Shown here: positions 2,458 to 57,938 of the stretch, piece after piece
How positions within the stretch are numbered: the stretch's first letter is position 1
Layout of the letters: every line of letters starts with the position of its first letter
Virus record (IMG/VR): IMGVR_UViG_3300035698_004085
Location: 1 to 64,000 of that record
Origin: a virus
DNA length: 64,000 nucleotides
Strand: one strand, 5' to 3'
Notes under the pieces: generated by a model
What the model was told of the DNA's origin: nothing
Seen by the model: the letters and a program-made list of their open reading frames with translations, nothing else
Database searches by the model: none
Program-made: the position numbers and the translations under genes

Positions 2458-5400
2458 ATGAAAACCGGTGACGTAAGTACTCTTCTTAACAGAAACAAAA
2501 TGACAGCTAGACGAGATGCTATGAAACCTAAGCTAATCTCATCTGACCCATCAGCCCATAATAGGAAGATGGCTGCTGAAGTCCTTCCAAAAGGATCTAC
2601 CTTATCTCCATCTATTCATAAGAGCGGAGTAAACGGACCCTGGGGAGGACAAGCAACTATGTCAACGGGTGGTGGAGCTTCACAATTCCACACACAGCGT
2701 CCTTTGATGCCTGAGTATGATTGTTTCATAGAGGGAACTCTTGTTAATCTTCCTAACGGTGAGTCTAAGAAGATTGAAGACATCGTAATAGGCGATAAGG
2801 TTGTTGATCGTAAGGGTATGGTTCAAACAGTAGAACGTCAATGGAGTTCTGGAACTCCTGATACCCTCGTTGAGATAACTACGTTAAGTGGTCTTAAGTT
2901 TAAAACCACTGACAGACACAACTGGCCAGTTTGGGCTTGGGCAAGAAAGTGTCAATGCGGTTGTGGAGAAGATGTAAAAACGTTAGGTAAGCTGTATCTA
3001 CGTGATCATTACAAGACAGGGATGGCTACTGGTGGAGTTTCTATTGTAGGTGACCCAAAAAATCCTATGTCTAATAGGAAGCTCTTACCTGAGGGTTATG
3101 ACCCTATTAAAAAAATGAGGGCAGACGAAATCAGGAAGGGTGATTTCTTGATGATGCCTCGGTCCTTTGAGAAGATAAAGACAGCTACTTCTCTGGATAA
3201 AGCGAGGTTGCTTGGTTATTATATAGCTGAAGGTAACATTGATTATCACAGAACCGGAGAGATATACTCAGCTACTTGGACTTTTGGTATTCATGAAGAG
3301 TATACGTTTGCAAAGGACGTTCATGATATTTTAGAAAGCATGGGCATAGCTTCTAGCGTAGTCTCAGTCAAAAAGAATAAGAATGTTTGTAGAGTTAGGC
3401 TAACGAATGATAGAGGTAAGAACCGGAAGACTGTTGATGAACTTATTGAGTGGCTTGCGGCAAACGGTGGGCAAATTGCTGCTCATAAAAAATGGAGTAC
3501 AGAAGTATTAGGGTGGTCTTTAGATCTTAAGCTTGAGATGCTTAAGGGTATGATAAGAGGAGACGGTTGTCAACAATGGAGATCAACAAAAGGAGATAAG
3601 GGCGGTAACTCTTTTATTGTGTTATACACTACGGTGTCTAAGACGCTGGCTCATCAGGTTCAGCTAGGCTTAACCCAGCTAGGATTTCCTTCTTGCATAT
3701 CTACTTGGCATAGTGAAAAACGGATTATGAATGGTGGAAAGCTTGTATCTTGTGCTGAGAGATACGACGTTAGGGTTATTTCTGCATATTCAAAGGCTTT
3801 AGCCGACATAATTTGGGGATCTGCATCTAAGTCTGCTGAGCTAGAGAGTAAGAACGCTATCAGGGCTACTTGCATGATGGATGATGATTTTGTTTATTAT
3901 CCAGTTAAAGCAGTTAATATAGTTGACAACGATAGACCGGTATACAACCTTACTGTATCTGGAGATCATTCTTATCTAGTTTCTAACATAGCTACTTATA
4001 ACAGTCCTGACCGTCAATTTTATCCAGAAGATAGGCTCCAAGCTAATGCTTATTGGCGAATGTTTCACAAGTATGACCCAATCTTTGGTACAGCAATTGA
4101 CATGTATGCGTCAATGATGACTTCTGACTTCGACATTGTATTATCGAATGAAGAAGACTCCTCTATTAAAAATCAGTTAATGGACATGTGCGACCAAGTT
4201 AACTTCTTAGAGAAATTTCAACAACTAATCAAGGAATATCTAGTCATAGGTGAGTCTTTCCCCCATAACTTCTTCGATTCTGAAAGAGGTATTTGGAACT
4301 ACATCGCTTTCCACAATCCTGATTATATAGAAGTGCAAGACTCTCCCATTATTGACATGGAGCCGATAATTAACTTCTTGCCAGACGACCAATTAAGAGA
4401 GCTAATATCTTCGAATACTCCAGAGTCTCATGAAATTAGGAAAAAGCTTCCCTCTGAATTTGTTTCAAAAGTATTAGCCAGACAAAAGATAAGGCTTTCG
4501 CCCCTAAACTGTTCATTTGTTGCGCGAAAGTTACATGCCTATGACGAACGTGGAACATCTTTGGCGAGTAGGTTGTGGAGGATCTTTGCAGTTGAAGACG
4601 CAGTATATAGCTCTACATTAGCTCATTTTAGAAGGGCTAGCAGTCCCTTAAAGGTGTTGAAGCTAGGTGACCCGTCAACAGGATGGATTCCGTCTCCTGA
4701 TACAGAGCAAGAATTACTTCGTATGGTGACAGCTGCTGAGTTAGATCCTCAGTGTTTTGTTCCAGAGACTCCAATTACTCAGTCAGATGGCATTACCAAG
4801 TGTATTGGCGACTTAGAGTTAGGTGATGAGCTTCTAGATAAGAATGGTCTAAAATGCACCGTAGAGGCTCTTCAAGATGAGTATACGACTGAGTTAGTTA
4901 ATTTGAGGGTTGAGGGTTCTCCTGATGACCTTATTTGTACTACTACCCACAAGTGGTCTATCTGGGGTATTGACCGTGAGTATACAGGAGTTAGGTCAAA
5001 CCTAAGAGTAAATAGTATAAGATCTTATATGGAAAAGAGGGGTTTATCCCTCATTCAGAAGGTTACAGCAGACAAAATAAAATCTGGTGATTATCTTATG
5101 GTTCCTAGGTCTTTTGAGTCTTTTTCTCCTTCTGACTTTAACAAAGATAAAGCTAGGTTGCTAGGGTATTATGCTGCTGAGGGAAGCGTTTCTGATGTTA
5201 AGGGTACCTCACGTAAAGAAGGTCGTTTTTCTCTTTCTATTAAGGAGAGGTCTACTCTAGCTGTAGATATTTGTAATATTGTATATGATATTTGCGGTAA
5301 ACGACCTAAAATATACGATAGACCCCAAACTAATAGCTGCGAAGTTGCTCTAAGTAACCTAGCGTTTGCTGAGTTGCTAGATTGGTTGGAGCTTCATGTT

Positions 5401-7329
5401 GGTAGAGGTAGCCATACTAAAGTTTTGTCTCCTGTTTTGATGGGGCTTCCTTTAGAATATAAGAAGGAGTTTATAAAGGGGTACTTATTGGGGGACGGTT
5501 GCTCACATGATGAGTCTAAAAAAAGGGGTAATCGAGGGTCTGTTCATGTTGATGTAGTTTCTGCTTCAAGAAAGATGATAGAGCAAGTGAAGTTAATTTT
5601 TGCTCAGTTAGGCTACTATGCTGGGTATTGTAAAACGGCTGTTTCTTTAACTTCTTTATTTGGTGCTGGTAATCCTATATTTACTCTTAGAATATCTGGC
5701 AGGAAGGCTTGTGACTTAGCTTATGAGGTTTGGGGTAGGAATCATACGTATGCTAAGCGTGATTGTACCCATTGGTGGGTTGATGATGATTTTATTTATG
5801 TGAGAATTAAGTCAGTAAAAAATGTTGATTGTTCTGACGAACCTCAAAAAGTTATAAATATGACCGTAAGTGGCGACCACTCATATTTAGCAAATCATTT
5901 TGGAACTTATAATTCATGGATTGTTTATAATTATGGTGTTAATTTCGAGCAGTGGGGGAACGGAGAAAGAGCTGTCACTCTTTCTCGTGAGAATGATACT
6001 ATTGAAAAGGTTAAGCTATTAGCTCTAGGAATGTCTAAATCGTTTGTCGGCGGAGAGGTGACCTACAGTTGTTCTACACCCGATACAAAAGTTCTTAAAG
6101 CTAGTGGTCAATACCTTAACATTGACGAAATAAAGGTTGGGGATAAAGTTGTAGACCGTTTTGGTAATCCCCAAGAGGTTACCAATTTCTTTGAATATCA
6201 TTCTCCTGACAAACTTATTAAAATTACTACATGTAATAATAAAGAGTTGTTATTAACGGATAATCATAATCTCCCAATTATGCGTGGCAGCGGTGACATA
6301 TTAAAACTTCAGTCAAAGGATGTTGAGGTTGGTGATTATCTTATGATGCCTCGTTGTTTGGTGAAGTCTTTATCAGAAGAGGACATGGGTAAGTGTACGT
6401 TAACTCTTTATGAGAATAGTGTTTGTTCTACAAAGGTTGAGAGTGAGAGTCTTGCTCTACATTCTGAGTCATTATTAACTCAAGCTGGTTATGCGAGCTT
6501 TACTGAAAAGGTTGGGGATACTTATTATGTTTATCGTGATGATGACGCTCCTCATATTATTAAAGATGATGACTATTTATATTTGCCAGTTAAGTCTGTA
6601 GAAGTAATTGATACGGATAAAGAAAAGTATCCTTATGTTTATAGTTTAACGGTTGCAAATACCAATAGCTATACACTTAATAACTTGGCTTCGTATAATT
6701 CCGCCAAATCTGGATTACAGGTATTTCTTAGAAGACTTCTAAATATGAGACAATTTTTTGAGTCATCTTGGATAATGCCAAAGTTTTTCCAACCTATAAT
6801 TGAGATTAACGATTGGCAAAAGGGAACTCCAGCGGAAGTCAATCACAGGATAAAGATTAAGAGGACTGCTCAGGAGGCTGATGCGCTTGGGTTGTTGATT
6901 AAGCCTAAGTTGATTTGGCGCAATAAGTTAGATCCGAAGGTAGATTCAGAGACTCTTCAAGCTTATTTACAGTTGAAGAATTTAGGGTTTATTGTTTCGC
7001 CAGATTCGGTTGGCGCAGCTGTTTCCTTAGATTGGCGAGATGAGTTAGCAAAGGATGCTAAGGCGTTTAAGGAGCGTGAGGAGATTCTTACTAAGCAACT
7101 TGGTCCAGAGCTTAAGTCAAAGTATGACGCAAAGAACCAAGAGGGGGCTGGAGCCAAGCCTCCTGGGGCAGCAGGTAGTGGTGCGGCTCCTCCTGGGGCA
7201 GCTGGTGGTAAGAAGCCCCCTGGTGGTCAACCGGGCGTTAGCAGTCCTCCTGGGAGTTCTCCTGAGGAGAGTGGTTCTGGTCCTTCAGATGAGTCGATTG
7301 ATTCGCCTGGAAGTATGGGAGGGATGTAG
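2458..7329 (+). CDS. Portal protein with three inteins
   Basis: The precursor is 1623 residues; removing inteins at residues 89-515, 766-1152 and 1205-1414 leaves about 599 residues, a normal size for a myovirus portal, the dodecameric ring through which DNA enters the capsid. The extein pieces join smoothly (MPEYD/SPDRQF, AELDPQ/SWIVYN, GEVTYS/SAKSGL). The call rests on the joined extein, with segments such as WRMFHKYDPIFGTAIDMY and SSWIMPKFFQPII, and on its place before the protease, scaffold and capsid genes. The C-terminus is a Gly/Pro/Ser-rich tail (KPPGAAGSG). The start has AAGGAC seven bases upstream. Each intein is followed by Ser as the +1 nucleophile. Terminase was considered but no ATPase or nuclease motifs are present. 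Confidence 0.8.
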   Translation: MKTGDVSTLLNRNKMTARRDAMKPKLISSDPSAHNRKMAAEVLPKGSTLSPSIHKSGVNGPWGGQATMSTGGGASQFHTQRPLMPEYDCFIEGTLVNLPNGESKKIEDIVIGDKVVDRKGMVQTVERQWSSGTPDTLVEITTLSGLKFKTTDRHNWPVWAWARKCQCGCGEDVKTLGKLYLRDHYKTGMATGGVSIVGDPKNPMSNRKLLPEGYDPIKKMRADEIRKGDFLMMPRSFEKIKTATSLDKARLLGYYIAEGNIDYHRTGEIYSATWTFGIHEEYTFAKDVHDILESMGIASSVVSVKKNKNVCRVRLTNDRGKNRKTVDELIEWLAANGGQIAAHKKWSTEVLGWSLDLKLEMLKGMIRGDGCQQWRSTKGDKGGNSFIVLYTTVSKTLAHQVQLGLTQLGFPSCISTWHSEKRIMNGGKLVSCAERYDVRVISAYSKALADIIWGSASKSAELESKNAIRATCMMDDDFVYYPVKAVNIVDNDRPVYNLTVSGDHSYLVSNIATYNSPDRQFYPEDRLQANAYWRMFHKYDPIFGTAIDMYASMMTSDFDIVLSNEEDSSIKNQLMDMCDQVNFLEKFQQLIKEYLVIGESFPHNFFDSERGIWNYIAFHNPDYIEVQDSPIIDMEPIINFLPDDQLRELISSNTPESHEIRKKLPSEFVSKVLARQKIRLSPLNCSFVARKLHAYDERGTSLASRLWRIFAVEDAVYSSTLAHFRRASSPLKVLKLGDPSTGWIPSPDTEQELLRMVTAAELDPQCFVPETPITQSDGITKCIGDLELGDELLDKNGLKCTVEALQDEYTTELVNLRVEGSPDDLICTTTHKWSIWGIDREYTGVRSNLRVNSIRSYMEKRGLSLIQKVTADKIKSGDYLMVPRSFESFSPSDFNKDKARLLGYYAAEGSVSDVKGTSRKEGRFSLSIKERSTLAVDICNIVYDICGKRPKIYDRPQTNSCEVALSNLAFAELLDWLELHVGRGSHTKVLSPVLMGLPLEYKKEFIKGYLLGDGCSHDESKKRGNRGSVHVDVVSASRKMIEQVKLIFAQLGYYAGYCKTAVSLTSLFGAGNPIFTLRISGRKACDLAYEVWGRNHTYAKRDCTHWWVDDDFIYVRIKSVKNVDCSDEPQKVINMTVSGDHSYLANHFGTYNSWIVYNYGVNFEQWGNGERAVTLSRENDTIEKVKLLALGMSKSFVGGEVTYSCSTPDTKVLKASGQYLNIDEIKVGDKVVDRFGNPQEVTNFFEYHSPDKLIKITTCNNKELLLTDNHNLPIMRGSGDILKLQSKDVEVGDYLMMPRCLVKSLSEEDMGKCTLTLYENSVCSTKVESESLALHSESLLTQAGYASFTEKVGDTYYVYRDDDAPHIIKDDDYLYLPVKSVEVIDTDKEKYPYVYSLTVANTNSYTLNNLASYNSAKSGLQVFLRRLLNMRQFFESSWIMPKFFQPIIEINDWQKGTPAEVNHRIKIKRTAQEADALGLLIKPKLIWRNKLDPKVDSETLQAYLQLKNLGFIVSPDSVGAAVSLDWRDELAKDAKAFKEREEILTKQLGPELKSKYDAKNQEGAGAKPPGAAGSGAAPPGAAGGKKPPGGQPGVSSPPGSSPEESGSGPSDESIDSPGSMGGM
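2722..4002 (+). mobile_element. Intein 1 in portal, with LAGLIDADG homing endonuclease domain
   Basis: 427 residues from Cys1 (CFIEGTLVNLPNGE) to the terminal Asn of ATYN, followed by Ser+1. Block B has the TxxH motif as TDRH. Two LAGLIDADG-type blocks are visible: LLGYYIAEGN and MLKGMIRGDGC. The C-terminal splice block has VYNLTVSGDHSYL. The penultimate residue is Tyr rather than the usual His. This is the class 1 layout (Cys1, Asn, Ser+1). A four-Cys cluster (CQCGCGEDV) lies after block B. Splicing is inferred; the ends are clear from sequence. Confidence 0.9.
4753..5913 (+). mobile_element. Intein 2 in portal, with LAGLIDADG homing endonuclease domain
   Basis: 387 residues from Cys1 (CFVPETPITQSDG) to Asn of GTYN, followed by Ser+1. 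Block B is TTTH, the endonuclease blocks are LLGYYAAEGS and FIKGYLLGDGC, and the C-terminal block is MTVSGDHSYLANH. Several stretches closely match intein 1 (GDYLMVPRSFE against GDFLMMPRSFE), so the two are paralogues at different sites of the same host gene. The penultimate residue is again Tyr. Confidence 0.9.
6070..6699 (+). mobile_element. Intein 3 in portal, mini-intein with eroded endonuclease
   Basis: 210 residues from Cys1 (CSTPDTKVLKASG) to Asn of ASYN, followed by Ser+1. Block B is TDNH. GDYLMMPR matches inteins 1 and 2, but both LAGLIDADG blocks are missing. A short stretch, LLTQAGYASFTEKVGDTYYV, looks like the tail end of a lost endonuclease domain. The C-terminal block lacks the DH seen in the other two. 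It is probably a splicing-only remnant that can no longer home. Confidence 0.85.
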
Positions 7330-9846: not shown

Positions 9847-11691
9847 ATGAAAAACAAAGTTAAGTTGTTTGAGACGGTTCTTGGGATTCACGCTAAGGGC
9901 GCAGCTCACTTGTCGGCTAGTGAAAGGTCAACGATTGAGACTGAGACGCAGGAATTGCTTCGTGGTGCTGGTCATAAATTAGCTGCAAAGGCTCCAGAAG
10001 GATTTGATAAACTGTTATCAGAGCTTACTTCTGCTGAGAATGCAGATGACGCTTACGAAATGGTTGTTGGTTTCTTGAAATCGCAAGACGGAATTGACGG
10101 TGGTGATCCTAAAGAAGATGCTCCAATGGACAAGCCTAAAGAGGATTTAATGGATTCTCCAATGGGAGATCCTAAAGAAGATGCCCCAATGGGCGCTCCG
10201 ATGGATAAGCCTAAAGACAAGCCAATGGGCGACGAGAAGTCTGATGACAAACCTAAAGACAAGATGGAAGACAAGCCTTCTGATGAGAAGCCTTCTGATG
10301 AGAAGCCTGAAGACAAGCCTAAGGATAAGATGGAAGACAAGCCTAAGGACAAGTCAATTGGTGATAAAGGTAAGGGCGACAAGGGCAAAGGCGACAAGCT
10401 AATGGACCTTGAAAAAGAGAAGAAAGACATCTTGGCTAGAGCGCGAGCTGCTGGTGATGAAGTTAAAGAAGACATGGCGAAATTGAAAGAAGATAAGGAC
10501 AAGCCTAAGGACAAAGACAAAGATAAAGAGGATGCTCCGATTTCTTCTGAGTCAATGGGCATTAAAGATCCTAAGACTGCTAATAAGGTAACTGTGAAAG
10601 TTACTTCAAGTCGTAATCTGTTGGTTTCATTTGACGGCAAGCCTTTGTTCCATGCGATTCCCAATGTAGAGACTAAAGCTAGTGTATCTTCTTTGAAGAG
10701 ACTTGCTAATAAAGTTTATGGATGGGTTGTTTATGAGGGTGCTGTTGCTGCTGCTACTAAGTGCGGAGCTAAGATCTTGGCTGGAGCTGACGATGACATT
10801 TCTGTTCCTTTTGATGCTGATTTAGGACCTGAGACTTCTCCAGTAACGGAAGACGCTGACGATGTTTTGGCTGATAGTCAAGAGACTCCTGCTAAGTCTA
10901 TTACAGATGATGCTGAATTTGTTTCAGATGAAACCTATGATAAAGTTAATGCTGCTGTAACAGATGATGCTGACGATGTAGTGTCTGAGGCTGTAGAGAC
11001 GCCTTCTAGTGACGTTACTGACGGGCATGAGGATGTGTTAGACGAAGAGCTAGAGACGCCTGCCAACGATACTCAGTCGGATGCTGAGGTTGATTTTAAG
11101 TCTGCTGAGGCTAGCTATAAGCAGCTGTATGCTTCAAGAGCTAAAAAAGAGTCTATTGATCTCAATAAGGCTTTTGTTACTAAATTTATTCGAGCTATTA
11201 AGGTTGCTGCTACCAGGATGAGTCTGAATCATGACGACAATCCTTATAAAGCAGCTTCTATTGATGTTTTAACCTCTGATAATGTGTCTTTCTCAGATGG
11301 TTCCGTTTTAGAGGGATTAGATGAGTCTGCTGCTTCAGAGTTAACTGAGCTAATTGCTAGTGAAGGTCATGAGCCTTTCATTACTCAACTGCTCACAAGG
11401 ACTTCCTCATTGATGAAGAAGTCAGATGAATACTTAGAAGATTTGGAGAGTGACTTGGGAGATCTTAATGTGACTCCTGTAGAAGTTGCACCTGCCAAAT
11501 CTGGTACTAAGAGACGTTCAAGCAAGAGTGAGAAGGTTCGCAAGGCTGCGTCCGATGGAAACTTTGCTTTAACTAATAATCGAGCGCGAGTTACCCGCAC
11601 TCAAAACGAAAACAATGTAGGTGGTCTTCGAGCCGTTATCGGTGACACCCCGCTTTCAAAACTAAGTAAAGTTTTGGCAGGGTCAAGATAA
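9847..11691 (+). CDS. Scaffold/prohead core protein
   Basis: 614 residues between protease and capsid genes, the usual place for a scaffold. Residues about 80-235 are an extreme Lys/Asp/Pro low-complexity region made of repeated KPKDK, DKMEDKPK and DAPM units. A second acidic repeat region (about 320-430) has recurring TDDADDV and ETP motifs. The N-terminal 75 residues and C-terminal 150 residues look ordered and helical; the C-terminus is basic (RRSSKSEKVRK), as expected for capsid-binding scaffold ends. It is likely cut by the protease and lost from mature heads. The role is inferred from position and composition. Confidence 0.65.
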   Translation: MKNKVKLFETVLGIHAKGAAHLSASERSTIETETQELLRGAGHKLAAKAPEGFDKLLSELTSAENADDAYEMVVGFLKSQDGIDGGDPKEDAPMDKPKEDLMDSPMGDPKEDAPMGAPMDKPKDKPMGDEKSDDKPKDKMEDKPSDEKPSDEKPEDKPKDKMEDKPKDKSIGDKGKGDKGKGDKLMDLEKEKKDILARARAAGDEVKEDMAKLKEDKDKPKDKDKDKEDAPISSESMGIKDPKTANKVTVKVTSSRNLLVSFDGKPLFHAIPNVETKASVSSLKRLANKVYGWVVYEGAVAAATKCGAKILAGADDDISVPFDADLGPETSPVTEDADDVLADSQETPAKSITDDAEFVSDETYDKVNAAVTDDADDVVSEAVETPSSDVTDGHEDVLDEELETPANDTQSDAEVDFKSAEASYKQLYASRAKKESIDLNKAFVTKFIRAIKVAATRMSLNHDDNPYKAASIDVLTSDNVSFSDGSVLEGLDESAASELTELIASEGHEPFITQLLTRTSSLMKKSDEYLEDLESDLGDLNVTPVEVAPAKSGTKRRSSKSEKVRKAASDGNFALTNNRARVTRTQNENNVGGLRAVIGDTPLSKLSKVLAGSR

Positions 11692-12497: not shown

Positions 12498-13706
12498 ATG
12501 AAAAAGAATAATCCTTATCGTAAGCTTGCAAAACGAGCTACTAAGCCTGCTGCTTCTAAAAAAGCACCTCGTAGGCTAGCTGCTCGTCCGAAGACTCGGC
12601 TGCAATCTAAGAATGATGAACAACTGTTTGACGAGAGTGGTGCGTTTAACCCTCAGTCCTACGACCGTAAATCTTCACGGGGCGCGTCTGCAGGTAAAAG
12701 TAACCGTCGCATGTTTAATGCTAGTGGTGAGATTAATGCTCATGACAAGCGTGATGCGCTAACACAAATTTATCAGCTCTTAGGTAATGTTACTAAGAAG
12801 AATGCTGGTAGTTTGTCTTTCCACAACGCTGATGAGCCTTCTATTAGTGTTGACGAAAAGCGTCAGATTATGGCTGCTGCTCTTCGTGATCCTTCTGGTG
12901 CTGGATTCCATCAAGTAGGTCAAGAGCTTGCTCTCCCTATTAAGGTTATCCTTGACTATGAAGGTTTTGCTCGTAAACTGTTTAGGGTTCGCAAGCTAGG
13001 TCAAGCCGAGCTTTTCCGGGTACCCAAAGACATCCGTTCGGTTGCTTATATTATTGGTCAAGATGGTCAGACTCCTGAAGCTCGCATCAAGACTAAGTAT
13101 ATCACTCCTGAAGAGTTCAAGGTAACGTCCTTCCCGTCTATTGACATCCAGGACATCTATCAAATGAACTTCGACGTTTTGGAGCGTGCGCAAGATACGG
13201 CACGTCAAGAGATCGAACTCCAAGAAGACAAAGCTGGTATCAATATTCTGGATCGCGCTGCGACTACCATTAATAACGTTACTACTTTTGCTTCTCTGGG
13301 TGTTGGCGCTTTTGAAGACGTTCGCTATCAGGTTGAGCAACATCGTCTCCTGGTTGAGAATTTCTGGATTGCTCGTGCAGAGCTTTCTGACATCGTTAAG
13401 AATATGTCAACTGCGGTTGATCCTGTAACTGAGCGTGAGTTGATTCTCAGTGGTTACATTGGCAATATCCTTAATGCTCAGATTATGACTGCTGCTGGTA
13501 CAGGCGTTGAAGAAGTTATTCCTGCGGGGACCTTCTATGCGACTACCGGAAGTGATTATCTTGGTGAGATGGGTGAGCGAATTAGTCTCTTCTCCGAGCC
13601 TTACAATAAGTACAACCAACAGGAAACTGTTAAGGGTTGGGCGTTCGTAGAAATGATTGGTTTCGTTATTCCTAACTCCAAGGCAGCTGCTAAGGGTATG
13701 AAATAA
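12498..13706 (+). CDS. Major capsid protein
   Basis: 402 residues with an Arg/Lys-rich N-terminus (about 1-40) that may be removed by the prohead protease. Residues about 135-400 read like an HK97-fold capsid protein, with an extended strand region (YITPEEFKV), a long spine helix (FDVLERAQDTARQEIELQED) and a P-domain ending in GWAFVEMIGFVIPN. The preceding scaffold and protease and the following strong terminator fit the most heavily expressed head gene. The Shine-Dalgarno sequence is AGGAGG, 9 bases before ATG. Confidence 0.85.
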   Translation: MKKNNPYRKLAKRATKPAASKKAPRRLAARPKTRLQSKNDEQLFDESGAFNPQSYDRKSSRGASAGKSNRRMFNASGEINAHDKRDALTQIYQLLGNVTKKNAGSLSFHNADEPSISVDEKRQIMAAALRDPSGAGFHQVGQELALPIKVILDYEGFARKLFRVRKLGQAELFRVPKDIRSVAYIIGQDGQTPEARIKTKYITPEEFKVTSFPSIDIQDIYQMNFDVLERAQDTARQEIELQEDKAGINILDRAATTINNVTTFASLGVGAFEDVRYQVEQHRLLVENFWIARAELSDIVKNMSTAVDPVTERELILSGYIGNILNAQIMTAAGTGVEEVIPAGTFYATTGSDYLGEMGERISLFSEPYNKYNQQETVKGWAFVEMIGFVIPNSKAAAKGMK

Positions 13707-44707: not shown

Positions 44708-47700
44708 ATGAAGAGAAGCTTATACCCTGACGGTTGTTTAATTGATAGAAGTGCCTTAGCAAATACTGAATCTACAAAAATTGATGAAATATTAAGAACT
44801 CGGGTTGATAACACATCTGGAGGTGTCTATTCTGGAGGTGCTGTTACAATCAACGCTCTGACAGATACCCTTGTAGACGTGGCGGCATTTGAAGGATTTA
44901 CTAGTAACGGAGAGTTCATATCTGATACCGTGGCTACTGCGAGCATACCTTTAGCTGATTATACTGCGGGGGTTATAAATGTTGTTGGAGCTATAGCTGC
45001 CGAGACTAATACTCATTCTCAACCGCATGAGTCCAATGGGCAGGTCTTTAGCACAAGAGCTTCAATGAGCTACCGGATTGTGGTTTATACTTTGGCAGAT
45101 TATGAAAACCCTTACGTATTGCCTGTGACAGATGCAACCTTAACAAATGACGCAAAGGACCGTTTTTTGGTTTTTGGATATGTTCAAGCTGAAGGAGTTG
45201 GTGCTACTTTAACAACTATTACAGATCCAACTACCTTTAACAACATATTGTATGCCTCTCCCACGTCTCAGGCTACTCTAACGGGCGTCTCGGTCATAGG
45301 AGTCAGCTCAGACACGCCGACAGGTCTTGGGCAGATTGACTATACGTATACTGCTCCTGCGACTTATGCAGTAACCTGGACTTCCCTAACAGGCGGAGTA
45401 GGTGCTTCTGTGGCTCTCACAGCGGACGGGACTTATACTGTGTTTTCGGGGACAGGGATTGACTATATAACTATTAGCGTAGTTTATTCAATGTTGCCTT
45501 TGACAGCTGCTGTGGCGTTCCCTACAACGGTTATTAACGCGTATGAGCAGGAAATTCCAAGGTTGACTGCGGAAGATAATTTGCACCGTAACTTTATTGG
45601 TACTGGTGTTGTTTCTCCGACAAATATTCATGGGCTTACGGCGGATGATCTCGGAGCACAAAGTCTTGCATTGTTGGATGAGCACCAAGACGTTATGCAC
45701 ACAAATGGGATCTGGAAAGGGTCTGCCCCAACGTGCTTAGGAACTACGGTAGTGAATTTGCCGGGTGATGACCAAATTAATGTAACTGCTCCAGCTGGAT
45801 CAGACCTATATTATATCAATGGTACTAAGCTAAATACAATAGATGCTACTTCTATTCTGTTTAATTTCCCAGCATTAACAACTCAGCTGTATGAAATCAG
45901 TGTGTCAGATGCTGGCAGTCTAGTATATAATGAGAAGCTTACCTATCCATTGGTTCGGAATGTTACTGGTACCTGGATTACGGATATGTCTACCTCATAC
46001 CCCGCAGGCAGCTATGATTTAGTTTGTGTAGCTTATACATCAGCTCCTAATTACTATGAACTATCATGGAACGCAGGACCTATTGTTACTGTTGAGTTTG
46101 GTGAAGCAGATCAAGCTGTAAGGCTTTATGACACAGATGGAATTAAGTGGGTTGACCTCTGGGTGAGAACGGCAACTTCTGGTGCAAATCCTGATTCATC
46201 TTTACCAACTACAGGTGGTGGTGGAACTACCTATACAGATTCTATAACTGTTTCAGCATCGTATGACTGGACAGAGAATATGCACATCTCTTCGGTGATA
46301 TGCTGGTGGGATGCAGTGTCTGCCACTAGAGTGTTAGGATATTCTTCATATTCTGCTTCAAGATTTGCGATGGATCATAGACCTTGGGGTACTATTGCTA
46401 AATCTAACATGAGTGATGCTGCTCTTCAAGATTTGATTTATCATCCTAATAGTGAGCTTCATTATTCTGGAGTTCTTTTAAATAGGGATATTCAGAATAC
46501 TGCTACTTCTATTGAGAATTTTGAGTTTGTCGGGTCTACTCTTCTTGCTGTTGATATAAGAGGAGGTCACTGTTATTGTAGAGGGCAAAGGCTATCAGTA
46601 GCTGAGGATGATACGCTAGCCCTGACTGATAATGTTGAGAATATTGTGTATGTGAGTGATACTGGCGTTATCATGTCATTGGCGGTTTCTGGGTTTGGAA
46701 GTACTGCTGAGGCGATTCGCTATCTGATTGGCGATGGTACTTATCGTCCAAATGTGAGCGCTGAGGTTCATTATACGGATGATAGAGATAATCCTGAGAG
46801 AGGCGTTCCTCTGTGGTCTATTACTACTGCTGCGGGAGTCGTATCGTCTTCTAAAAGCATTATGAGAAATGTAAATAACGTTACTGATATGTGGTCGGTT
46901 GGAGAGAGTGCTGGTGCTTTCTCAACCTTGGAGGCTGCATTCTTTATGGCGTCTATTTTCACAGATGAAGATATTGAAGTAACAGTAATTGGAGATACTA
47001 CGGTTTCTACTGTTATTACTCAACCCGCTAATGTTTCAGTGAAGGGCGTTGGTACGACTGCTGGCGTAACTATTGGATCTGCATTGAGCGTGAACGGTGC
47101 TTGGCTGTTGTCAGACGGTTGTGTAGTTGACGGAGCTAATATTGTTAATGCTTTTGACGGAAGTGCTGCGATTGGTCTAGCTGATAATACAACGGTTAAA
47201 AACTGTACTTATACGGGACAAGCGGTTGCTGGTTATGACTATTTCTTAGCAGGAAAGGGGGCTGTTCTAATAAGTAACGCTTCTGTCTTAAATAATACCG
47301 TATCTACGACGGGTGGTTTGTTTGCTCAGGCAACTATGGCTTCTGCTATAAACGTAAACATAAATATTATAGACAATCAAGTGTCAATGTCTGCGGACAA
47401 CACAAACAGTGATACGGCATTGTGTTATATTAGTGCTATCGATTCTCGGATTAAAGGTAATACGCTTACAACCGACAATGGTAATGCTCACTTTGTTGAT
47501 GTTCTAAATATCTCAAACACGGTTAGTTCGAGCGTTACTGATAATATTATTCGTATGGGTCAAGGTGATGCTTCTGCTGATGAGATAGGCATTAGGCTTT
47601 CAGGGCTTTTAAATGTAACTGTAGGAATTAGTGGCAATGTTATAGGTAGAGAGTCAAGTAGTACTTCCACTATTGGGGTTGGCATCTGTATTTCAAGTAT

Positions 47701-49255
47701 TGTGTCAGGGGTTTCTATTAGTAATAACAGGGTTAGCTTGGTTGGTAGGGCGATTGGAGCTGAGGATAGCGCTTTTCAGGCTCAAAATTTAGCTATTGAT
47801 GGGAACATCATAGACTCTTGTTATACTAGCGGAATTGTAGTAGATTTAGGTTCTCTAGACTGTGATAACGTTTCTATTTGTAATAACGTTATCCGAGATA
47901 TTACGAGAGCTGCTGTTGTTCTTTCGCATGACAGTATTGTGGGTATAGAGTTTACTGTTGATGGTGCGGCTACTGTTTTAGGAGTTAACATAAGCGGTAA
48001 TACGATTTCAGAGATGTCTACGGATATTGGGGCGGTTCAGGGGGTTAATATTAGCTTAGGTCTTGCTTCTACGGTTGAAGGATTTTCTGTTTCTAATAAC
48101 GTAATTTCTAATCTTTTATCTGCTGCTCAAAATGTGTATGGAATTGATTTTGGAGGTACTACAGGGACTTGGGATAGTTTTACTATTTCAGGTAACACGA
48201 TTAGCGTTTTATCAGCGGCTGCGGCTAATGCGATTTATGGTATTTATCTTGGAGGTTCGTCTACTGATGTTACGAATGCTTCTATTAATTCTAACAATAT
48301 TAATTTTGCTACTTCGGTTCTTTCTGCTAGTGCTGGAACTGCTTGCGGGATAAGGTGTCTTTGGGAGCTTGAGGCTTCTTCGCTTAATTCTAATACTATA
48401 TTAATATCTCATTCTAACGATACGGATCAAGGTGATGGTATTTTGCTTGAAGATCAGTTAGACGCAACCTCTATAAACGATAATGATATTAAAGTTCCTC
48501 GCGCTGCGTTACTTTTGGATGCTATTTTAAGGGGGTCTGTCTCGTCTAATACTCTTATGTCTCACGGTGGCGGAATTATGGTAGGGGCTACCGCTAACGG
48601 CGTTAATGTTCAAAATAATGTAATTATTATTACTCCGTCTAACTCATTAGGAAGTTACGGTAGCTATGGTATTGTTAACTTAGGAAATGATGTAGTTATT
48701 TCTGGGAATCAGATTAAAATGTTTGGTGATTCTACTGGTGCCGTGCCAAATGGCTCTTGTCTTATTTGTTCTGACGAAGGGGTAGGCGTATCAATTATTG
48801 GTAATAAGTTGTATACTTCTGCTCATATAACTTCAGTTTCTGGAGCTGGTCTTGCTTATCATATTCTTTTTAATATTGGAAATGTTACTACAACTCAGCA
48901 GCACGCTATCTCTGATAATAATTTAGTGTGTAACGATGCTAGCTTATTTAATGGTATTTATATTTATCATCCTAATGCGGGTACTGCTTTAGCTACCGCT
49001 ACTGTTAGTTTTTCAGCTAATAGTGTTGTTAGCGCTTTATCAGCTGCTGCTTGGCCAACGACGGCTGTTGATGTACCTCATCAGATCTTTTTTACTACGT
49101 CTGCTTTGTATAGGATAATAGCTAGTGCCAATATTATAAATGCCAGTGGCGGTTCTCTTACCTTTCCAAAGGGGTTTGTAGGTCCTTCTCCCCTGCATAC
49201 AGTATCCAGTAATGTTGCTACGGCTGACGGCGTTGGTGCACCTACTTGGTGGTAA
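44708..49255 (+). CDS. Large beta-helical tail fibre or tailspike
   Basis: 1515 residues. The N-terminal part (about 1-130) looks like a tail-fibre attachment domain (SLYPDGCLIDRSALANTEST). Residues about 195-260 share a beta module with the 38873 protein (DTPTGLGQIDYTYT, DGTYTVFSG). Residues about 750-1420 are a long run of short strands with repeated N-N-x-I/V motifs (SISNNRVSL, NLAIDGNIIDS, VSICNNVIRD), the signature of a right-handed parallel beta-helix. The end (TADGVGAPTWW) may be a trimerising tip. This is likely the receptor-binding or depolymerising spike; enzyme residues cannot be read with certainty. Confidence 0.75.
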   Translation: MKRSLYPDGCLIDRSALANTESTKIDEILRTRVDNTSGGVYSGGAVTINALTDTLVDVAAFEGFTSNGEFISDTVATASIPLADYTAGVINVVGAIAAETNTHSQPHESNGQVFSTRASMSYRIVVYTLADYENPYVLPVTDATLTNDAKDRFLVFGYVQAEGVGATLTTITDPTTFNNILYASPTSQATLTGVSVIGVSSDTPTGLGQIDYTYTAPATYAVTWTSLTGGVGASVALTADGTYTVFSGTGIDYITISVVYSMLPLTAAVAFPTTVINAYEQEIPRLTAEDNLHRNFIGTGVVSPTNIHGLTADDLGAQSLALLDEHQDVMHTNGIWKGSAPTCLGTTVVNLPGDDQINVTAPAGSDLYYINGTKLNTIDATSILFNFPALTTQLYEISVSDAGSLVYNEKLTYPLVRNVTGTWITDMSTSYPAGSYDLVCVAYTSAPNYYELSWNAGPIVTVEFGEADQAVRLYDTDGIKWVDLWVRTATSGANPDSSLPTTGGGGTTYTDSITVSASYDWTENMHISSVICWWDAVSATRVLGYSSYSASRFAMDHRPWGTIAKSNMSDAALQDLIYHPNSELHYSGVLLNRDIQNTATSIENFEFVGSTLLAVDIRGGHCYCRGQRLSVAEDDTLALTDNVENIVYVSDTGVIMSLAVSGFGSTAEAIRYLIGDGTYRPNVSAEVHYTDDRDNPERGVPLWSITTAAGVVSSSKSIMRNVNNVTDMWSVGESAGAFSTLEAAFFMASIFTDEDIEVTVIGDTTVSTVITQPANVSVKGVGTTAGVTIGSALSVNGAWLLSDGCVVDGANIVNAFDGSAAIGLADNTTVKNCTYTGQAVAGYDYFLAGKGAVLISNASVLNNTVSTTGGLFAQATMASAINVNINIIDNQVSMSADNTNSDTALCYISAIDSRIKGNTLTTDNGNAHFVDVLNISNTVSSSVTDNIIRMGQGDASADEIGIRLSGLLNVTVGISGNVIGRESSSTSTIGVGICISSIVSGVSISNNRVSLVGRAIGAEDSAFQAQNLAIDGNIIDSCYTSGIVVDLGSLDCDNVSICNNVIRDITRAAVVLSHDSIVGIEFTVDGAATVLGVNISGNTISEMSTDIGAVQGVNISLGLASTVEGFSVSNNVISNLLSAAQNVYGIDFGGTTGTWDSFTISGNTISVLSAAAANAIYGIYLGGSSTDVTNASINSNNINFATSVLSASAGTACGIRCLWELEASSLNSNTILISHSNDTDQGDGILLEDQLDATSINDNDIKVPRAALLLDAILRGSVSSNTLMSHGGGIMVGATANGVNVQNNVIIITPSNSLGSYGSYGIVNLGNDVVISGNQIKMFGDSTGAVPNGSCLICSDEGVGVSIIGNKLYTSAHITSVSGAGLAYHILFNIGNVTTTQQHAISDNNLVCNDASLFNGIYIYHPNAGTALATATVSFSANSVVSALSAAAWPTTAVDVPHQIFFTTSALYRIIASANIINASGGSLTFPKGFVGPSPLHTVSSNVATADGVGAPTWW

Positions 49256-49337: not shown

Positions 49338-50102
49338 ATGAGGTTTTTATTTGTAATTATTATAGTGTTGAGTTTGTTAGGCTGTCAGGCTTACGAGTCT
49401 CCGTCTTACTTTGATGAGGAAGATGCGGGGGCTGATACCGACACTGATACCGACACTGATACCGACACTGATACCGACACTGATACGGACACTGATGCCG
49501 ACACTGATGCCGACACTGATACGGACACTGATGCCGACACTGATACGGACACTGATACGGACACGGACACTGATACGGACACTGATACGGACACTGATAC
49601 GGACACTGATACGGACACTGATACCGTGCTGGGGTGTGACGACATTACTTGTTATTTATCTGAAGAAGATCCAGACGATATTGCTTTTTTTAAGATTGAA
49701 TGGCTGGATACGCATGATCCTTCATTTACTATTAGGCTGGAGAGGGGCGTATGTTCTCTTTCTGTTTATGGTGTCCCTGAGTGTGCTTATGCTACGGTAG
49801 AGATTGGGTGTGGAGAAGATCACTGGGCTTCTTATTGGACGTTTGATCATGGAGAGATGACAGACTACACTAAGGAAGAGCCGGGAGCGTGCTTGAGTAA
49901 AGATATTGAGCCTGTCGTAGGGTGTCACTCTACTCCAGAATTTCATATTCTTAATTGCATAGATGACGAAACCTTGGTAGAAATCTATTTTGTAGATCCA
50001 GGTCAGTGGGATACATTTGCTTGTGAGTATACCTATGCAGAAGACTATCACACCTGTCCAACTTCTTGTGTGTCTGACGGAGATTCTTCTTACTGCGTGT
50101 AA
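49338..50102 (+). CDS. Lipoprotein with long Asp-Thr repeat
   Basis: 254 residues. The start is a lipoprotein signal (MRFLFVIIIVLSLLGC) with lipidated Cys at residue 16. Residues about 33-96 are 32 Asp-Thr or Asp-Ala dipeptides. The C-terminal domain (about 98-254) has at least 11 Cys residues, suggesting disulfide bonding outside the cytoplasm. DTDT linkers of this kind occur in surface proteins of deltaproteobacteria-like hosts, so the gene may be host-derived. Possible roles are surface masking, superinfection exclusion or adhesion; none is proven. GGAGG lies before the ATG. Confidence 0.65.
   Translation: MRFLFVIIIVLSLLGCQAYESPSYFDEEDAGADTDTDTDTDTDTDTDTDTDTDADTDADTDTDTDADTDTDTDTDTDTDTDTDTDTDTDTDTDTDTVLGCDDITCYLSEEDPDDIAFFKIEWLDTHDPSFTIRLERGVCSLSVYGVPECAYATVEIGCGEDHWASYWTFDHGEMTDYTKEEPGACLSKDIEPVVGCHSTPEFHILNCIDDETLVEIYFVDPGQWDTFACEYTYAEDYHTCPTSCVSDGDSSYCV
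49434..49625 (+). repeat. 12-base coding minisatellite (Asp-Thr)
   Basis: About sixteen units of GATACCGACACT or close variants (GATACGGACACT, GATGCCGACACT), covering 192 bases in frame. It is more GC-rich than its surroundings and could vary in copy number by slippage without breaking the frame. Confidence 0.9.
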
Positions 50103-55064: not shown

Positions 55065-57938
55065 ATGATTGCACTAGAATCGCATGGAGATAAATTTGTG
55101 GTATCTTTAGATAAGAACCATGAGTATTATACTCGTGCGTATATAGCAATGAGGTCTTTGTTAACTGTCCAAGAATTGCCCAACGATAAATGGGCAATGG
55201 GCTATGATGATCTAGTTTCGTTTAAGAGCAAATTAGATTCTCTTGGCTTAGTTGACGGACGAACGATGAATGAAAGCGCTTTACAACTTGCTTCTCAATA
55301 TCAAGCTCTTCAAAAACGAAATGAAGATATTAAAAATGGAGTGCATAACGAGTATATAGAGTCTTTGATAAAAGGTAAGTTGAAGACAACTCCTTATAAG
55401 GATCAAGTAACAGGAATCTCCTATTTAGTCAATAATAGAAGAGCGGGAATGTTCTCAAGCATGGGAATTGGGAAAGCTCAGCCTCTTGATGCTAAAATTC
55501 TTACTCCTACGGGTTGGAAGCTTATGGGGCAGATGAAGGTCAAGGATAGAGTTATAAACTCAAAGGGTAAGATCTCTAGGGTAACGGGAGTATTTCCTCA
55601 AGGAATTAAAGCTATTTATAGAGTTACTTTTACGGATGGGTCAAGTACGGAATGCTGTGAAGACCATTTGTGGAAGGTTCAGACTCCTAGAGAGAGGGCG
55701 AGTGGGTATCCTTCGCGTATCATTCCGCTTAAAGACTTTAAAGATGATTTGGTTTATGGTAGTGGTAATAGAAAGCGCTTTATTCCTATAGTTAACCCTG
55801 TAGATTTTGTTGAGAAACAGAAATTACCTTTACACCCTTACGTTTTAGGGTGCTTACTGGGAGATGGAGGGTTGTCTACTGAAAGTAGGGTGGGGTTTAC
55901 TTCTATAGACCGTGAGATTATTGATGCTATTAATAGTTTTCTTCCAGATAACCACTCTTTAAAGTTTAGGAAGGGTACTGAGTGTGATTATGCGATTACT
56001 CGTGACGATGTTAGGAAAAAGGGTGGTAATTTTGTTTTATCTGCTTTGCGGCTCTTATCTTTGCACGGAGTAAAGTCTGATACAAAGTTCATACCTGATA
56101 TGTATAAATTTAGTTCAGTTTCTTCTAGGATGTCTTTGTTGCAAGGATTGTTAGACACAGACGGAAGTGTTTCTGTTAATTCTTGTATTGAGTATACTTC
56201 AGTGTCTGAGAGACTGGCAGATGGTGTGTCTTTTCTTGTTAGATCTCTGGGCGGAAAAGCTACTAAGAATTCTAGGATTCCTACGTTTACGTATAAGGGC
56301 ATAAAGAAGAAGAGGGCTTACCGCATACATATATCGATGGCTGGGTATTTTCCGCCGTTTAAGCTTTCCCGTAAGGCTGAGGCATGGAGTCCGAGAACTA
56401 AGTATCCACCAGCTAGAGCTTTTAAATCTGTTGAATTTGTGGGTAGAAAAGAAGCTCAGTGTATTTCAGTAGATGCAAAGGATCATTTGTATGTTACTGA
56501 TGACTTCATTTTGACTCATAATACGATTCAGGCTTTGGGATCTGTTGTTTCTTTAAGCGATGAAGTTAAAAAGACTTTGGTAATTGCTCCAAAAAGCGTG
56601 CTATCTGGGTTTGCTAATGAGATTGAAAAGCATACGTATCTCAGCTCTATTACTATTCCTCCAGGAAGAAAGCCTAGCTTAAAGTTCTTACAGGATAATA
56701 AGCACGGTAATTGGGATATGCTTTTAGTACACCCTGAAAACCTTATTGGATCGTCTAAAAGAGAAACGTATGGAGACATTACAAAACTTTTAAAGACTAT
56801 GCGTTTTGATATGGTAATTGTAGATGAGTTCCACCAATATAAGAATCTTTCAGCCAAGAGAACTAAATGCGTTTTATCATTATTAGCAGAACTCCGAGAT
56901 AATAAAAAACAATTACCAAGAGCTGTATTAATGACTGGTACTCCTGTTTCTGAATCTCCATTAAATGCCTATACTGTCTTACATATTTTAAGTACAGATG
57001 TTTTACCGCACGTTGATAGGTTTGAGAATTACTTTACGATTAAGGATTCTTTTGATATTCGGCAGAAGAATAAGAGGACTGGAAGATTTCAGACAATAAC
57101 TGTTCAGAAGGTAAAAGGGTATAAAAATCTAGGCGAACTCAAGCAACGGCTAGAAAGAGTCTCTATCAGGCGCACTAAGGATGATATGGAGGGCTTCCCA
57201 GACCAAGTGTTTACTACTAGGTCAGTAGAGCTTAAAGGCAATCAGAAGGCTCTTTATAAGACGGTATGCGGAGAAGTAGTTGAGTCTTTATCTCAGTCGA
57301 GTAAGATCAATCTCACCAATTTCTTTTCTTCAGCTAGTGCGGTTAGGCTTAGGCAGCTTTTAAACCATCCTCAATTTTTGGATGAAAAAGGAACTTCTGC
57401 TAAGTATGATGAAATTGATATTATTTTAGAAGAGCTTTTTTCAGATCCTGAACAGAAAGTTGTGTTATGGACTGAATATAGAAAAGCGGTTGATCTTATT
57501 TATGATCGGTGGAACGAGAAATATGGAGTAGTTAAGCTCTATGGTGGAGTTGACATTACTAACGAACTAGCCAATTCTTTTGAGTCAGATGGTGGTCCAA
57601 GGATTGCGGCTTCGATTGCCGCCAAAGTAGGGACAGGGGTTGACTTTTTAGCAAGGGCAAGAACTGCTATTTATATTGATAGACCTTATTCGTTTACGCA
57701 GTATAAACAGTCAATTGACCGGATTCATAGGAGAGTAAAAACGACTGGAGAACTTTCTAAGCTAGACAGGATAAGATCTCAACCAGCGACTATTATTTAT
57801 CTTGACGTTCCTGACTCAATAGACGAGCTGGTTAAGGTAAAGTTATACGGTAAGCAAGAAGTGGCTGACGCTTTAACGATTGAAGATAGTAAGTTAGTAA
57901 CTATGGGTAAGTCTGCTCTATTAAGGTATTTGAGGTAA
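55065..57938 (+). CDS. SNF2-type helicase containing a class 3 intein
   Basis: The precursor is 957 residues; removing the intein (138-486) leaves 608. Joined motifs: GMFSSMGIGK/TIQALG (Walker A), MVIVDEFHQYKN (Walker B, DExH), MTGTPVSESP (motif III), YRKAVDLIYDRW and DRIHRRVKTTG (motif VI). These are the helicase core of SNF2/SF2 ATP-dependent translocases, which in phages are linked to recombination and replication restart. The start follows the previous stop directly. No nuclease domain is visible. Confidence 0.85.
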   Translation: MIALESHGDKFVVSLDKNHEYYTRAYIAMRSLLTVQELPNDKWAMGYDDLVSFKSKLDSLGLVDGRTMNESALQLASQYQALQKRNEDIKNGVHNEYIESLIKGKLKTTPYKDQVTGISYLVNNRRAGMFSSMGIGKAQPLDAKILTPTGWKLMGQMKVKDRVINSKGKISRVTGVFPQGIKAIYRVTFTDGSSTECCEDHLWKVQTPRERASGYPSRIIPLKDFKDDLVYGSGNRKRFIPIVNPVDFVEKQKLPLHPYVLGCLLGDGGLSTESRVGFTSIDREIIDAINSFLPDNHSLKFRKGTECDYAITRDDVRKKGGNFVLSALRLLSLHGVKSDTKFIPDMYKFSSVSSRMSLLQGLLDTDGSVSVNSCIEYTSVSERLADGVSFLVRSLGGKATKNSRIPTFTYKGIKKKRAYRIHISMAGYFPPFKLSRKAEAWSPRTKYPPARAFKSVEFVGRKEAQCISVDAKDHLYVTDDFILTHNTIQALGSVVSLSDEVKKTLVIAPKSVLSGFANEIEKHTYLSSITIPPGRKPSLKFLQDNKHGNWDMLLVHPENLIGSSKRETYGDITKLLKTMRFDMVIVDEFHQYKNLSAKRTKCVLSLLAELRDNKKQLPRAVLMTGTPVSESPLNAYTVLHILSTDVLPHVDRFENYFTIKDSFDIRQKNKRTGRFQTITVQKVKGYKNLGELKQRLERVSIRRTKDDMEGFPDQVFTTRSVELKGNQKALYKTVCGEVVESLSQSSKINLTNFFSSASAVRLRQLLNHPQFLDEKGTSAKYDEIDIILEELFSDPEQKVVLWTEYRKAVDLIYDRWNEKYGVVKLYGGVDITNELANSFESDGGPRIAASIAAKVGTGVDFLARARTAIYIDRPYSFTQYKQSIDRIHRRVKTTGELSKLDRIRSQPATIIYLDVPDSIDELVKVKLYGKQEVADALTIEDSKLVTMGKSALLRYLR
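55476..56522 (+). mobile_element. Class 3 intein in helicase Walker A motif
   Basis: 349 residues from Ala1 (AQPLDAKILTPTGWKLMG) to Asn of LTHN, followed by Thr+1. It lacks Cys/Ser at position 1, but shows the class 3 set: Trp in block B (EDHLWKV), Cys at the start of block F (AQCISVD), and Thr in block G (LTHN). The endonuclease has LAGLIDADG-type blocks LGCLLGDGG and LLQGLLDTDG. Insertion between GIGK and T destroys the ATP-binding site unless spliced. Confidence 0.9.

Follow-up and report, generated by a model that had tools for sequence, protein, structure and literature searches.

The window, by which we mean the whole stretch of DNA analysed here, comprises 64,000 nucleotides, bases 1-64000 of a virus record of 175,002 bases. 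Within it, ORF 2458-7329 runs stop-free through 1623 codons (about 4.9 kb) in one frame, and is laid out as follows.

2458..7329, + strand: portal precursor gene, 1623 aa, with a predicted mature portal of 599 aa
2458..2721, + strand: extein 1, mature residues 1-88, ending MPEYD
2722..4002, + strand: intein 1 (I1), 427 aa, ORF residues 89-515, at site A (extein residue 88)
4003..4752, + strand: extein 2, mature residues 89-338, 48% identical to the Rctr197k portal over 250 aa
4753..5913, + strand: intein 2 (I2), 387 aa, ORF residues 766-1152, at site E (extein residue 338)
5914..6069, + strand: extein 3, mature residues 339-390
6070..6699, + strand: intein 3 (I3), 210 aa, ORF residues 1205-1414, at site H (extein residue 390)
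6358..6537, + strand: middle of I3, standing in place of an endonuclease (I3 residues 97-156, placed by alignment to L028, L029 and L031)
6700..7329, + strand: extein 4, mature residues 391-599

Among PHROGs the ORF matched portal proteins, which form the ring that admits DNA to the head (phrog_16240, 1.8e-58), and its Pfam matches were Intein_splicing (2.5e-27) and LAGLIDADG_3 (2.8e-21). Spliced in silico, the 599-aa product is homologous to portals: it matched 243 phage records, many of them annotated as portal and including Bacillus phage G, and is 41% identical over 88% to the intein-free portal of Virus Rctr197k. The predicted joints read (arrow at the junction) MPEYD↓SPDRQ where intein-free relatives have QPEFE↓SPDRQ, ELDPQ↓SWIV where relatives have EVDPA↓AWLV, and GEVTYS↓SAKSG where relatives have GEVTYA↓SAASG. 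All three are gapless against five intein-free portals, those of Rctr197k and of L011, L012, L013 and L015 (complete relatives from IMG/VR, empty at all three sites), as expected of precise insertion; the portal of L010 carries an intein at the third site. Downstream lies a head gene set that includes the major head protein gene (12498-13706; phrog_2522, 2e-57). These comparisons confirm ORF 2458-7329 as a portal gene interrupted by three predicted inteins of 427, 387 and 210 aa. An ORF at 9847-11691, a short distance upstream of the gene for the major head protein, contains a long Lys/Asp/Pro-rich repeat region (KPKDKPED).

The units running from Cys1 to Asn and a +1 Ser, as first described for this gene, proved exact in all three lengths, with joints D↓C...N↓S, Q↓C...N↓S and S↓C...N↓S. 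By motif, each is an ordinary class 1 intein: Cys1, a terminal Asn and +1 Ser are present throughout, and the block B TxxH motif reads TDRH in I1, TTTH in I2 and TDNH in I3. The C-termini are ATYN, GTYN and ASYN, respectively, so that the penultimate His, which is usual and not obligatory, is replaced by Tyr in every case; the block-F His is kept in I1 and I2, and is Asn in I3. The Hint (horseshoe) fold is supported by AF2 models and Foldseek for I1 and I3, and by homology only for I2. For I1 (pLDDT 86.9) the top PDB matches were PI-SceI (6e-19), TliVMA and other endonuclease-bearing inteins. GC content is 0.40 in I1, like the exteins, and falls to 0.34 in I3; because neighbouring phage genes go down to 0.32, the inteins show no clear sign of recent arrival.

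I1 and I2 each contain two LAGLIDADG blocks, as had been noted, with the acidic residues kept (E170 and D281 in I1, in the motifs LGYYIAEG and MIRGDG; E143 and D248 in I2, in LGYYAAEG and LLGDG) and Pfam LAGLIDADG_3 scores of 1.5e-12 and 2.4e-9. I1 also has a Cys knuckle, CQCGCG...H. A CxCGC...H knuckle, placed after block B and ahead of the first LAGLIDADG motif, was likewise seen in inteins of L009, L010, L018, L022-L024, L026, L028, L029, L031, L045 and L051, and may be an accessory module that binds zinc; redirection of homing sites has been proposed as a role of accessory domains (PMC8966425). I2 has lost the knuckle, which most clade members retain, among them the L029 intein at the same site. 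On these features the decay is graded, the apparent loss of a knuckle from I2 being milder than the loss of an endonuclease from I3.

Both LAGLIDADG motifs are absent from I3 while the splicing blocks remain, in agreement with the initial annotation, and the splicing fold is well formed in the AF2 model (pLDDT 87.5; Foldseek matches to GyrA, gp41-1, DnaB and VMA inteins). A compact intein of 210 aa with such a fold could in principle be a primitive mini-intein, free of an endonuclease from the start. This is extremely unlikely given where I3 falls among its relatives, nested within endonuclease-bearing inteins. The site-H inteins of L028, L029 and L031 sit at exactly the same insertion point, measure 438-441 aa and have complete endonucleases; I3 forms a clade with them at 100/100 in both the full-length and the splicing-column trees. 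Since these nearest same-site kin all have the endonuclease, "eroded" is the correct word for I3. In the extein tree, too, the window joins the L028, L029 and L031 lineages with 100/100 support and branches off first among them; the match between the two clades indicates that the ancestor shared by this portal and its closest relatives probably already carried the site-H intein, and that the endonuclease was lost on the branch leading to the window. Between the L029 and L031 site-H inteins, endonuclease dN was 0.14 and extein dN 0.157, with dS saturated, which amounts to equally conservative change; near-identical records hardly differ when compared for selection.

The middle of I3, about 70 residues that can be partly aligned to the second LAGLIDADG half, also speaks against a primitive origin. 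Within it, SESLALHSESLLTQAGYASF resembles that half and aligns with the helix that follows the second LAGLIDADG motif; I3 residues 120-156 were modelled by AF2 as strand-helix-strand-strand, and a profile score as high was reached by 21 of 2000 shuffles. In the same profile comparison, the first LAGLIDADG half had no match in I3. The SESLALHSESLLTQAGYASF stretch is, possibly, a remnant of the endonuclease.

The gene was also followed across related phages. Because these inteins and this portal served as the queries by which relatives were found, the share of portals among host genes and the share of occupied sites are biased; the mapping of sites is independent of that bias. One intein clade occupies seven portal sites (A and C-H, at extein residues 88, 287, 301, 338, 380, 386 and 390), and an eighth, site B at residue 176, holds a sister-clade intein in L028. 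Members of the same clade are also found in TerL (L018 and L045) and in a head-tail connector (L009). The penultimate His is missing from all 19 sampled clade members (0/19), against 10/11 with it in the sister group. Six of the eight sites lie inside 104 residues, a clustering that is not significant (p about 0.06); the eight sit in better conserved stretches than random positions do (p=0.002). Mapped in this way, the portal gene has been entered repeatedly by one family of predicted inteins, at eight or more insertion points. Single-protein searches with pieces of the portal gave no matches in IMG/VR or GTDB, alignment-based searches being needed, and no relative was found on plasmids.

Several of these portals are multiply occupied. 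Two inteins each are present in those of L028, of L029, L030 and L033, and of L051, and the L023 portal, an ORF of 1996 codons, has three. Three inteins in one phage gene, at different stages of decay, had been called unusual; the description holds for this gene, and its rarity was overstated, because L023 has as many and archaea, too, have genes with three (PMC10643990). First residues also vary within the family. Ser-start portal inteins of the clade occur at L028:3444-4757 and L023:3705-4802, and the site-H portal intein of L060 (G009, IMGVR_UViG_3300009503_000018) starts with Thr, TTYA↓TLCKSAK...VGTYN↓SANAG. Besides this one portal intein, G009 carries one clade intein in TerL.

The three inteins are related to one another beyond chance, as the mutual alignment that the initial annotation had asked for demonstrates (I1-I2 6e-47, I1-I3 1e-12, I2-I3 1e-8). 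The GDY/FLMxPR and SGDHSYL stretches first reported as shared by I1 and I2 are real; they are a property of the wider clade, and SGDHSYL is missing from I3. From this resemblance it had been proposed that one intein entered the portal gene and was copied to the other two sites within the phage lineage. Mutual homology is indeed what such copying would leave behind, and since the clade is found mostly in portals, jumps between portal sites must have occurred at some depth. Paralogous jumping inside this gene did not survive phylogenetic analysis, and we regard it as very improbable, because each of the three groups more closely with inteins of other phages. A clade of I1, I2 and I3 was rejected with full-length sequences (p-AU 5e-6) and with splicing columns (2e-54), as was one of I1 and I2 (p-AU 1e-5). 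The sister of I2 is the L029 site-E intein at 100/100 (I2 is 41% identical to the site-E intein of L029, L030 and L033), while I1 groups at 94/91 with the inteins in the L009 head-tail connector and the L018 TerL, near the site-A intein of L023.

Label changes on the intein tree point the same way. Insertion site changes 7 times, a count as low being reached in 6/300 shuffles, consistent with same-site inteins being closer; portal of residence changes 12 times, as low in 227/300 shuffles, so there is no clustering by portal gene. Constraining every site-H intein to one origin was rejected (AU p=0.0045), indicating repeated entry into site H; for the two site-A inteins, I1 and L023_A, shared ancestry was not rejected (p=0.10). 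Because L028 and L031 have no intein at site E, I2 may have come by transfer and not by descent. Going by these trees, change of site must be a property of the wider intein lineage, extending outside the portal to TerL and the connector.

Based on the boundaries, homology, empty sites, same-site homologues and endonuclease loss visible in the sequences, we consider it very probable that the precursor sheds three class 1 inteins to yield the 599-aa portal, that I1 and I2 home, and that I3, having lost its endonuclease, is carried along. In each intein, attack by Cys1 would be followed by transfer to the +1 Ser and cyclisation of the Asn, joining the exteins. The intact-looking LAGLIDADG endonucleases of I1 and I2 would cut DNA and copy their inteins into empty portal alleles during co-infection. 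I3 would no longer home alone and would hitch-hike, either inherited with the gene or co-converted with I2, from whose site only 52 codons separate it, near enough for carriage by gene conversion. A homing cycle that includes endonuclease loss has been described (PMC8966425).

How well the inteins splice is less certain. The block-F His is thought to be able to substitute for the penultimate His, and with the latter missing from all three and the former from I3, splicing efficiency is uncertain. The residues of blocks F and G are unusual, most of all in I3, and might mean that at least one insert no longer splices and that the allele is dead or chimeric, or else misassembled. The 4.9-kb frame has stayed open and Cys1, TxxH, Asn and +1 Ser are all kept; head genes follow downstream, and inteins at both E and H are seen again in L029, L030 and L033, three records that were assembled separately. 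These observations make a dead or misassembled gene most improbable.

The residues at the C-terminus bear on a further reading, in which splicing is conditional and controls portal assembly or DNA packaging, and the inserts are regulatory and not selfish. The hosts of the clade (portal, TerL and head-tail connector) are all parts of the packaging vertex, and a regulatory role has been proposed for the two-intein TerL of cyanophage Mic1 (PMC7156551). The penultimate residue is known to alter splicing in a mycobacteriophage intein (PMC5050341), and the His that can tune the reaction from this position is missing clade-wide. Occupancy is patchy, with five related portals free of inteins and the sites varying between phages, as expected of selfish elements, and we judge a regulatory function quite unlikely. 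It is also unlikely, although worth stating, that these inteins represent a packaging-vertex lineage without penultimate His in which Asn cyclisation is otherwise activated and splicing is timed to head assembly or packaging.

The phage has five inteins in three genes in total. The fourth (window 55476-56522, 349 aa) lies in ORF 55065-57938, a SNF2-type helicase, and splits the Walker-A Lys and Thr exactly, GIGK↓AQPLDAK...FILTHN↓TIQALG. With Ala as its first residue, it has the class 3 Trp/Cys/Thr set (DHLW, QCIS, LTHN) and two LAGLIDADG motifs, and was missed by the Pfam splicing model. The fifth, beyond the window at G000:99599-99988 (locus L071), is a 130-aa mini-intein with the joints NP↓C...SN↓CGE and a penultimate Ser, in a gene that looks like a ribonucleotide reductase. 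Elsewhere in the window, at 49432-49626, about 17 copies of a 12-bp unit, CTGATACCGACA, form a tandem repeat just past the end of ORF 44708-49255.

The interesting part of this system is the portal hotspot, with same-site alleles that have and lack the endonuclease. At matched positions in related phages, empty, full-length, knuckle-less and endonuclease-less alleles provide a natural series of the homing cycle, and co-homing of an endonuclease-less intein by its neighbour becomes testable; for archaea, the question has been raised of whether an intein can decay when it is carried by a neighbour (PMC10643990). The hotspot is a structural phage gene, adding to the replication genes as targets, and the unusual C-terminal catalytic residues make these inteins an offering to protein engineering. 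A literature search conducted largely outside subscription journals found no paper on three inteins in one phage gene or on a portal hotspot.

Like the class 1 LAGLIDADG inteins PI-SceI, TliVMA and PI-PfuI, among which are the top fold matches of I1, the portal inteins have Cys1, a block B TxxH, a C-terminal Asn and a +1 nucleophile, and the insert of those inteins likewise has two LAGLIDADG motifs. They differ in being only about 15% identical to them, in a penultimate Tyr in place of His, and in the extra CxCGC...H knuckle of I1. I3 resembles the mini- and degenerate-endonuclease inteins PhoVMA (where degeneration of the endonuclease is documented; PMC8966425), M. xenopi GyrA and gp41-1 in having a Hint fold without a working endonuclease; unlike them, it has endonuclease-bearing same-site homologues in related phages, and both its block-F and its penultimate His are gone.

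Inteins in packaging or portal genes are known from the Mic1 TerL, with two (PMC7156551), and from the portals of mycobacteriophage cluster C1, non-His penultimate residues also having been reported in mycobacteriophages (PMC5050341); we liken these to the present case by description and not by sequence, and here three inteins share one portal gene. Several inteins at different conserved sites of a single gene are likewise found in archaea, with three in Haloquadratum polB and four sites in haloarchaeal MCM (PMC10643990), whereas here the target is a phage structural gene with at least eight sites across the family, seven of them occupied by one intein clade.
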